Assembly (NCBI GenBank): GCA_018702955.1
Contig: JABJEK010000066.1
Coordinates: forward strand, 1 to 64,000
DNA: 64,000 nucleotides
Direction of reading: 5' to 3'
Origin: Rhodospirillaceae bacterium
GTDB lineage: Bacteria > Pseudomonadota > Alphaproteobacteria > UBA6615
Both the position numbers and the translations under genes were made by a program. Shown piece after piece: positions 39,239 through 41,916 of the stretch. Positions within the stretch are counted from its first letter, which is position 1. Each line of letters begins with the position of its first letter. The notes beneath the pieces were generated by a model. The model saw nothing but the letters and a program-made list of their open reading frames with translations, was not told the origin of the DNA and made no database searches.

Positions 39239-39345
39239 GGTTTTGCTCCCCATCATTGCGCACAATCATAGCCGCAACGGTTGATTGTCGCCCATTTGGT
39301 TATAATTGAGTTGGTGTCGCGCAGCACATGCCTGGAGAGAACCGA

Positions 39346-39729
39346 ATGCCCAAAAAGTCCGATAAACGTCCACCGGTTGCGGTAGGTCATGTCTCGCTGC
39401 ATGTGAAAGACGTGCCGCAGGCGAGCGAGTTCATGCAGGTGCTGGGTCTGCGCGCCGTATTTGAAGCCCCGAAATTTGCCGTTCTGGAGCTGCGCGGCGG
39501 TACCCACCTGATCCTCAACCAGTCGCGCAGAAAGATTAAGCCGGGCGAGGTTGCGCCCGTCGACCTGATGGTCGACGACGTCAAGGCCATGCGTGACTAC
39601 TGCATGAAGCAGAAACTCAAGCCATCGAAAATCACGTCCGGCTCCGTGCACAGCTCATTCTATGTACCTGGTCCCGACGGCTGGTCGATCAAGATCACAT
39701 CGTCTCACACATCTGGCCGCCCGGTCTGA
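39346..39729 (+). CDS. VOC/glyoxalase superfamily protein
   Basis: A 127-residue single vicinal-oxygen-chelate domain: VAVGHVSLHVKDVPQASEFMQVLG at the N-terminus, VPGPDGWSIKIT at the C-terminus. ATG 39346 follows GGAGAG at proper spacing. A metal histidine is visible in GHVSLHV, but the usual C-terminal glutamate strand reads IKITSS, so the metal site may be incomplete. Function could be an isomerase, a dioxygenase-like enzyme or a binding protein. Divergent from the BadI-like gene. Confidence 0.8.
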   Translation: MPKKSDKRPPVAVGHVSLHVKDVPQASEFMQVLGLRAVFEAPKFAVLELRGGTHLILNQSRRKIKPGEVAPVDLMVDDVKAMRDYCMKQKLKPSKITSGSVHSSFYVPGPDGWSIKITSSHTSGRPV

Positions 39730-39835
39730 TCCGCCGGGCGCCGCGTCGGTCACAAGCCTCGTGATCGAATGCGCCCTTATGGAAGAATGCGCGAGCGGCT
39801 AGTTTCCTTGGCATTCAAGGGACAGGAGTGCGGTT

Positions 39836-40558
39836 TTGCCTGATCGTTTCGGACCCCGCGGTGTCGTGGCTGTCGTGATTCCGGTGCAGAATTCAAACAT
39901 GCAACCGGAATACGAACTGATGCGCCCCGAGGGTATCAGCCATCAGATGTACCGGTTCGATATCTCGGATCATGGCAAAGTGCCGGAAGCGGTGCTGCGC
40001 GTCGTTCCCGACACGCTGTTGTGCTGGCCCGATGTGATTATCGGTGGCAATTCGCTGGAGATGCGTGACTGGTCGGATGCGCAGCAGGTGGCGTATCGGG
40101 CTGCCTTCGAAGAGCGTGCCAATGGTGTGCCGGTGGTCCTCGCGACCGATGCCACGGTCGCGGCGTTGAAGACGATTGGAGCCAAGCGGGTCGGCGTGCT
40201 TTCGCCCATGTCGTCCGAACACTCCAAAGGCGCCAAAAACTATTACGAAGCGCAGGGTTTCGAGATGCCCCACGACACCTCGCTGATGGTCAGGAAATCC
40301 GAGGACATCATCAACATGACGGCCGATGACGCGATCGCCGCGTTCGAGCGAATCGACATGGATGACGTGGACACACTCCTCCATATCGGCGGTGCGCTCG
40401 GTATCGTGTCCCACATCGAGGCCATCGAAACCCGTTTCGGCAAACCGCTCGTCTCCGTCAACGCCGCCACTTACTGGTATGCACTTCGCAAGATCGGGGT
40501 GAATGATCCGATGCCCGGTTTCGGGCAGCTTCTGGCGCACACAGACGTCGCCGAATAA
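39836..40558 (+). CDS. Asp/Glu racemase-fold (maleate isomerase/arylmalonate decarboxylase-like) protein, copy 1
   Basis: A 240-residue protein starting at TTG 39836 after AGGAG. The fold is suggested by the conserved pattern VVLATDATVAALKTIGAKRVGVLSP and FGKPLVSVNAATYWYALRKIGV. In the active family two catalytic cysteines occur, in CTS and CTN motifs; here the matching positions read GGNS (residues 70-73) and IGGALG (184-189). The only cysteine is C63 in LLCWPDV. It is the first of a tandem pair with 40589-41311. Confidence 0.78.
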   Translation: MPDRFGPRGVVAVVIPVQNSNMQPEYELMRPEGISHQMYRFDISDHGKVPEAVLRVVPDTLLCWPDVIIGGNSLEMRDWSDAQQVAYRAAFEERANGVPVVLATDATVAALKTIGAKRVGVLSPMSSEHSKGAKNYYEAQGFEMPHDTSLMVRKSEDIINMTADDAIAAFERIDMDDVDTLLHIGGALGIVSHIEAIETRFGKPLVSVNAATYWYALRKIGVNDPMPGFGQLLAHTDVAE

Positions 40559-40588
40559 GCCATTCCCACTTCATAGAAAGTTACTGTC

Positions 40589-41311
40589 ATGCCCGATCGT
40601 TTCGGACCCCGCGGCGTCGTCGCCGTTCTTATCCCCGTTCAGAATTCCAACATGCAGCCCGAGTACGAGATGATGCGCCCCGAGGGCGTCAGCAATCAGA
40701 TGTACCGGTTCAACATCACCAGCCCCGATACCGTGGGCGAGGCGGTGCTCGACGTGGTGCCGCAAACGCTGAAATGCTGGCCGGATATGATTGTCGGCGG
40801 CAACTCGCTCGAGATGCGTGACTGGTCGGTCGAAAAGCAGGCCTGGTATACGGGCGAGTTCGCCAAACGGGCCGGGGACAAGCCCTTCGTGCTGGCGACC
40901 GACGCGGTCATCGCCGCACTGCACACGGTCGGTGCGAAACGTTTCGGGATGATGTCACCCCTGTCGGTCGAGAATTCTCAAAGTGCCGTGGATTACTACA
41001 CGGCTCTCGGTTTCGATGTCGCATTGGCGACCGCGCTCCTGGTGGACAAGCCCGAGAACGCCGTGAATGTCCCCATGGAGCGGGTGATTGAAGCCTTCGA
41101 GGAGGTTGACGGCCCCGATATCGACACGCTGCTGCATGTCGGTGGGTCGCTCGGCATCGTGCCGCTGATCGCCGAATTGGAGGACCGTTTCAAGAAGCCC
41201 GTTATCTCGGTCAATCAGGCGACCTACTGGTACGCGCTGCGCAGGATGGGCATCACCGATCCCATTCCCGGGTTCGGTGAGCTCATGCTGAAGGCCGACA
41301 TCGTCGATTAA
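40589..41311 (+). CDS. Asp/Glu racemase-fold protein, copy 2
   Basis: A 240-residue paralogue of the preceding gene, well over half identical and with no length difference. The first 30 residues are nearly the same. It also has Gly at both canonical cysteine positions (VGGNS and VGGSLG) and a single C63 in LKCWPDM. ATG start; 30-nt spacer to copy 1. The pair may form a heteromer. Reaction is unknown; it should not be called a racemase. Confidence 0.78.
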   Translation: MPDRFGPRGVVAVLIPVQNSNMQPEYEMMRPEGVSNQMYRFNITSPDTVGEAVLDVVPQTLKCWPDMIVGGNSLEMRDWSVEKQAWYTGEFAKRAGDKPFVLATDAVIAALHTVGAKRFGMMSPLSVENSQSAVDYYTALGFDVALATALLVDKPENAVNVPMERVIEAFEEVDGPDIDTLLHVGGSLGIVPLIAELEDRFKKPVISVNQATYWYALRRMGITDPIPGFGELMLKADIVD

Positions 41312-41331: not shown

Positions 41332-41916
41332 TTACTCGGCGGCGACGCGGTCGGCCATGCGGAATCCGACCTTGTCCAGGGCGGCGAGCGTGTCCTCGCC
41401 GAATTTCTCGGTGATCTCCTGGCCGACATGCGGGTGGTACACAACCTCGTCTTTGACGTCGCCCTCGACGGACTGGATCATCACCAGCAGGCGCGCGGTT
41501 TCGTCGGAGATGTTGTTGAAGTCGCGATACACGCCGGCCGGTACGGAGATGAAGTCCAGCGGCTCCAATTCGATTGAGTTCTCGCCGTTCTCTCCCCAGG
41601 AAATGCGGAACTTCCCGTTCAGGCAGAAGAAATTCTCGACCGTGTGGGAATGGCTGTGTAGCCCCGGGTTGTTGCCCGGCGGGCACTCGGCGATGGTCAC
41701 GGTGAGACCGTTCATACCCTTGACCGGTGCAACCTTGGAGCGGCCTTCCCAGCCCTCCGGTGACATGATCGGATAGACCGACTTTGCCGAGACGATCTCG
41801 ACCGCTTCGGCCGGAATACCGGTGCCTTCCATGATCGACTGCTTGTACGGCTTGAGGTCCTTGAACCGGGCGATGCGGTTGGACATGTCCGGGTTGTTGA
41901 GGTCGACCGTTTTCAT
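41332..41916 (-). CDS. Cupin-domain protein
   Basis: A 194-residue single cupin. Motif 1 is GLHSHSHTVENFFCLNGKF, with two histidines and a glutamate. Motif 2 reads PAGVYRDFNN, in which the expected metal histidine is replaced by arginine. It could still bind a metal through the remaining ligands or serve as a sugar or acid isomerase or a binding protein. It starts after GGAG and converges with the racemase-like pair, and may act on the same compound. Confidence 0.82.
   Translation of the reverse strand: MKTVDLNNPDMSNRIARFKDLKPYKQSIMEGTGIPAEAVEIVSAKSVYPIMSPEGWEGRSKVAPVKGMNGLTVTIAECPPGNNPGLHSHSHTVENFFCLNGKFRISWGENGENSIELEPLDFISVPAGVYRDFNNISDETARLLVMIQSVEGDVKDEVVYHPHVGQEITEKFGEDTLAALDKVGFRMADRVAAE

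Follow-up and report, generated by a model that had tools for sequence, protein, structure and literature searches.

The window is a stretch of 64,000 nucleotides from a Rhodospirillaceae bacterium (contig JABJEK010000066.1 of assembly GCA_018702955.1). It contains two adjacent genes, 30 bp apart, that encode paralogous proteins of 240 residues. The two proteins, which we call copy A and copy B, are 60% identical in a gap-free alignment, and each has just one cysteine (C63, within CWPD in both). The features of the locus are:

39328..39729, + strand: VOC/glyoxalase-like gene, the upstream syntenic neighbour (weak Pfam match; retained in relatives without the pair)
39824-39828, + strand: AGGAG motif ahead of the start of copy A
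39836..40558, + strand: copy A (P0001), 240 amino acids, TTG start; cysteine-less protein of the AMDase/maleate isomerase fold
40022..40024 (copy A) and 40775-40777 (copy B), + strand: codon for C63, the sole cysteine of each protein
40043..40063 (copy A) and 40796-40816 (copy B), + strand: site 1 region, in copy A G70-G71-N72-S73-L74-E75-M76 (G-C-T-S in canonical relatives)
40382..40399 (copy A) and 41135-41152 (copy B), + strand: site 2 region, in copy A H183-I184-G185-G186-A187-L188 (cysteine at 185 in canonical relatives)
40589..41311, + strand: copy B (P0002), paralogue of copy A, 240 amino acids, ATG start; the more conserved copy
41332..41916, - strand: Cupin_2 gene, the convergent syntenic neighbour (retained without the pair in four genomes)

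The start codon of copy A is weak or unusual. In the window's genus it is TTG (39836-39838 in the window) or GTG, and other genomes have ATT (G004), ATA (G008, contig C2, about 1158655) or ATG (G007); L019 at 1501 is a further case. Copy B always starts with ATG. Nonetheless, the N-terminal residues of copy A are conserved. The neighbouring cupin (41332-41916) is one of 10 members of its family in the window's genome, and its second motif (PAGVYRDFNN) has an arginine in place of the usual last metal-binding histidine of cupins. We rejected a phage origin for the locus: no phage record matched, and two genera share the locus in synteny.

The initial annotation, made from the sequence alone, had aligned both proteins with maleate isomerases and arylmalonate decarboxylases (AMDases), and it had proposed structure prediction as a check. 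Both the family search and the predicted structure agree with that assignment. The copies score 52.7 and 47.9 bits against Pfam's Amdase family (PF17645; cut-off 25.9), and an AlphaFold2 model built from a 36-sequence alignment has a pLDDT of 93.0 and a pTM of 0.91. The model's best matches in the PDB, as found by Foldseek, are 4IX1, the maleate isomerases 2XED, 2XEC, and 4FQ7, 2DGD, and arylmalonate decarboxylases (TM 0.68-0.85); the TM scores against glutamate, hydantoin, and allantoin racemases are about 0.5-0.6. As modeled, both copies have the two-domain Asp/Glu racemase fold and lie in its AMDase/maleate isomerase/EutA branch. Among NCBIfam's models, EutA (TIGR02990) has the top score (78.8 and 75.3 bits; cut-off 318), followed by AMDase (NF052327; 51.7 and 46.2 bits; cut-off 225), so both scores are far under the equivalog cut-offs. 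(A search with the NF052327 profile across 299 genomes of the phylum gave no match, and the controls gave no match either.)

The cysteines are regarded as the catalytic machinery of this fold. Maleate cis-trans isomerase, for example, has two catalytic cysteines, of which one is a nucleophile and the other is an acid. We examined these sites across 123 distinct homologues, which were extracted and aligned with MAFFT; trees were built by a quick method. (Because the homologues were collected with the window protein as the query, the proportions of the different kinds are not frequencies in nature.) The canonical kind comprises 32 sequences that have cysteine at both sites, including L094, which is an EutA above the NCBIfam cut-off. 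The window's own subfamily (subfamily F) has 42 sequences, none of which has cysteine at either site (0/42). A sister group (group S) has 40 sequences, also without cysteine at either site. The remaining nine homologues have one cysteine or none, and they include L001, a third homologue from the window's own genome. The site 1 sequence of L001 (G000:C47:23955-24641) is FCLT, and its site 2 sequence is PGGNMPC. Neither catalytic column seems to hold a cysteine in this protein, which groups with L111, L114, and L115 in a small clade of their own.

At site 2, the alignment register is unambiguous. Canonical relatives have [FL]-[IVL]-S-C-[TG]-[ADS]-L, versus L-H-[VI]-G-G-[AS]-L in the window pair, and G185 of the pair occupies the column that holds cysteine in 32 of 32 canonical relatives. 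At site 1, the register is uncertain by one residue: MAFFT places N72 under the catalytic cysteine, and a shift by one residue would place G71 there instead, which would match MGTS in AMDase. Neither residue is a cysteine. The initial annotation had read these motifs as GGNS and GGALG/GGSLG and had claimed that the catalytic cysteines are missing from both sites of both copies. Its motif readings are correct, and correcting for gaps did not bring a cysteine into either site. It had also suggested a search for homologues with the CWPD plus GGNS signature; in the 42-member subfamily, C63 is present in 42/42 and N72 in 39/42.

Besides lacking the cysteines, subfamily F has conserved residues. H183, G185, and E75 are found in all 42 members and D105 in 41 of the 42. 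Three of these are gains relative to the canonical kind, which has I, V, or L instead of H183, mostly G or A instead of E75, and T, G, or Q instead of D105. N209, W214, P124, R218, and, in part, N19 are common to subfamily F and the canonical members. Group S has Q183 and G185 in 40/40 and C63 in 28/40. Subfamily F and group S together form one clade (82 of the 123 rows; SH-aLRT 100) with no cysteine at either site in any of the 82, and this grouping is recovered again from an alignment stripped of the two motif regions and of six long-branch rows. Since the two groups cluster and all of their members lack the cysteines, the double loss is ancient and shared, and is not particular to this pair. 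The pair belongs with this clade, which includes the indigoidine-cluster protein IgiC, by its placement in the tree, its G185, a polar residue (H or Q) at 183, and the absence of a site 1 cysteine. Among Alphaproteobacteria, members of this clade are common, and a genome often has several copies.

We then compared the pair to known systems. AMDase holds its substrate's carboxylate with T75, S76, and Y126 and takes its proton from C188, and AMDases also adjoin TTT transporters (PMC4996985). The pair resembles AMDase in its fold, its Pfam family, the lack of a site 1 cysteine (G74 in AMDase), and the frequent TTT transporter neighbours of its relatives. However, the proton donor C188 (ILLSCGGL) is replaced by G185 in both copies and in 42/42 members, and the dioxyanion hole of T75, S76, and Y126 is replaced by N72-S73 (or S73-L74) and M125. 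(Across subfamily F, the position of Y126 is methionine or leucine.) Maleate cis-trans isomerases (2XED, 4FQ7) share the fold and are the best sequence matches in the PDB, but they have cysteine at both sites and the pair has neither. EutA, from ectoine utilisation, is the closest NCBIfam model by score, but L094 retains both cysteines (SCTS and SCTA), and the pair is below the EutA cut-off and outside the EutA clade. No ectoine genes were found among the neighbours of the pair that we examined. The top Foldseek match, 4IX1 (the uncharacterised OPAG_01669 from Rhodococcus), also lacks the cysteines (VGQVGTPFSF and IIMSGAAV). It has methionine at the 183 position, though, and is just 21-22% identical.

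IgiC, known from Leisingera and Vogesella, is in the same cysteine-less clade. It differs from the pair in that it belongs to the sister group, has glutamine at 183, retains TPY, and has another gene context. In Leisingera caerulea, the gene order around the group S gene L100 is TetR, NAD(P)-oxidoreductase, the S gene, NRPS, tautomerase, and MFS. This matches the published igiR-B-C-D-F-E set, so L100 is very probably IgiC, and it is annotated as "arylmalonate decarboxylase." According to a later paper (PMC12826045), earlier work had tied the production of indigoidine to igiB and igiC. PGAP gives the same label to cysteine-less proteins without C188 on several PLSDB plasmids (NZ_CP081093.1, NC_017957.2, NZ_CP140001.1, NZ_CP061179.1, and NZ_CP015091.1). 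Sequence searches turned up no member of the clade that has been solved or characterised, and a search of the literature for cysteine-less members of the fold family found nothing specific.

We also examined the gene context of the relatives. (Neighbouring genes were called by a simple ORF picker.) In five genomes (L047, L054, L062, L063, and L064), the F gene lies directly after TctB-TctA-TctC, about 50 bp past TctC in the case of L064. Near these F genes are AEC and DASS carriers, along with hydroxyacid and other dehydrogenases (Gfo/Idh/MocA, tartronate-semialdehyde-reductase-like, and of the ureidoglycolate/sulfolactate type). Other F genes (L039, L041, and L057) are near genes for aldehyde dehydrogenases and indolepyruvate-oxidoreductase-like proteins. 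As for group S, an isochorismatase-fold hydrolase is near the gene at 8 of 25 loci (two from Tistrella), and some loci have TRAP or ABC transporters, FAD monooxygenases, CoA transferase, HMG-CoA lyase, or TPP enzymes. (Such hydrolases are found repeatedly near L101, L102, L104, L151-L154, and L162, in some cases together with genes for an FAD monooxygenase or an alpha/beta hydrolase.) By analogy, this context is reminiscent of N-heterocycle catabolism, and a pathway of the pyridine/nicotinate type may be a lead, but only a lead. In six genomes (G377:C31, G207:C34, G308:C13, G216:C127, G088:C4, and G034:C49), no more than about 3 kb separates an S gene from a canonical, cysteine-bearing paralogue, which suggests that the two act in the same pathway.

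We propose that the pair are cytosolic, cysteine-independent enzymes of small-carboxylate metabolism, with a pocket rebuilt around His183, Glu75, and Asp105. We give this proposal an even chance of being right. It involves three inferences: that the proteins are enzymes (because of the operon context, the invariant gained polar residues, and IgiC), that their substrates are carboxylates (because relatives sit in TctBAC transporter operons), and which residues do the acid-base work. Non-canonical chemistry is plausible. The carboxylate substrate would lie between the two domains. N19 (P-x-Q-N), N209, and two loops, one at site 1 (G71-N72-S73) and the other at G185-G186, would hold it there. In the AlphaFold2 model, the strand running toward the lost second cysteine terminates at H183, and E75 is in a short helix past the site 1 loop. 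As H183 is two residues before the lost cysteine, the two positions share a face of that strand. The reaction could be that of a lyase, a hydratase, or an isomerase and would need no cofactor, with His183 as the general acid/base and Glu75 and/or Asp105 assisting it; each copy would work alone. The genes around the pair in the window (VOC, cupin, enoyl-CoA hydratase, and NIPSNAP) do not spell out a clear pathway. This counts against the proposal, as do the replacement of AMDase's Y126 and the loss or damage of the locus in several close relatives.

The main alternative is that the proteins are pseudoenzymes in which the fold and the pocket were kept for binding a small carboxylate, so that they would serve as a sensor, a carrier, or a regulator of a pathway. 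Both known catalytic residues are absent while the pocket loops are invariant, and, on sequence grounds, invariance by itself would fit a binder as well as a catalyst. Also, the six genomes with an S gene within about 3 kb of a canonical paralogue have the arrangement expected for a regulator and its enzyme. But most F genes do not adjoin a canonical paralogue, the His, Glu, and Asp residues that were gained do not vary and carry charge, and in operons the clade is represented by one enzyme-like gene that immediately follows transporter genes. We consider a pseudoenzyme unlikely, but it deserves to be taken seriously. In contrast, it is very improbable that these are ordinary AMDases or maleate isomerases whose catalytic cysteine was misaligned or is provided by C63. 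The names from Pfam and PGAP favor an ordinary enzyme, and, as the initial annotation pointed out, C63 is conserved in both copies (and is invariant in subfamily F). But the emphasis on C63 was probably misplaced. This lone cysteine is not close in sequence to either site: in the AlphaFold2 model it ends the helix 46-63, ahead of the strand 67-70 whose far end bears site 1. It is also replaced in 12 of 40 sister members. Its position and its replacement rule it out as a relocated catalytic cysteine, and its role is probably structural. Furthermore, in NozR, a relative with this fold, mutating either cysteine abolished activity (PMC10156859).

The remaining alternatives concern the locus itself, which is lost or broken in several close relatives. 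G003 has copy B only. In G008, copy B has an in-frame TAA, and in G007, copy A is frameshifted and copy B has a TAG. (Both of these genomes are MAGs, so single-base errors are possible.) At the syntenic site, G005 has no match to the pair and G006 has a remnant of about 35 residues; in G018, about 18 bp separates the VOC gene from the cupin gene, and no gene lies in between; and G019 lacks both the pair and the VOC gene. These seven genomes might suggest decaying pseudogenes of an ordinary family member, but both frames are open in the window, and the same site residues are retained across the whole clade. Between orthologues within a genus, dN/dS (NG86) ranges from 0.086 to 0.147 for copy A and from 0.040 to 0.061 for copy B. 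Copy A evolves about twice as fast, but both ratios are well below 1, so purifying selection maintains both copies. On this ground we rejected decay, which we consider extremely improbable, and the result upholds the initial annotation's argument for selection. The other suggestion in that annotation, a heteromer of the two copies, perhaps with the neighbouring cupin, did not hold up. Both copies are under selection, and the tandem arrangement, 30 bp apart, is retained in several genomes from two genera. (As genera g1 and g3 both carry both copies, the duplication predates their split.) However, only 5 of the 32 loci from a search of genome contigs have a tandem pair (L034, L035, L038, L043, and L046), and at the majority of the remaining loci a single F gene occurs in an unrelated context. 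Because single genes predominate, G003 has only copy B, and a copy is broken in G007 and G008, the subfamily as a whole cannot depend on a heteromer. Similarly, a cupin orthologue (83-93% identical) is kept at the same locus in G005, G006, G018, and G019, none of which has an intact pair. We rejected both partnerships, as obligate ones, on synteny, and an obligate heteromer seems quite improbable. Given these losses, the function is dispensable; the pair is accessory and is not tied to the cupin.

Overall, the pair belongs to a large, misannotated, cysteine-free clade of a known fold family. Because the clade lacks the cysteines, the name "arylmalonate decarboxylase" cannot be right on mechanism. 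The clade as a whole might be an unrecognised class of enzymes, in which the cysteine pair gave way to an acid-base site of His (or Gln) and Glu/Asp and which catalyzes a carboxylate reaction other than racemisation, AMDase-type decarboxylation, or maleate isomerisation. This broader idea is possible but tentative. Knowing the reaction of IgiC or of a TctBAC-linked member would reveal how a well-studied fold functions without thiols, and would correct many annotations.
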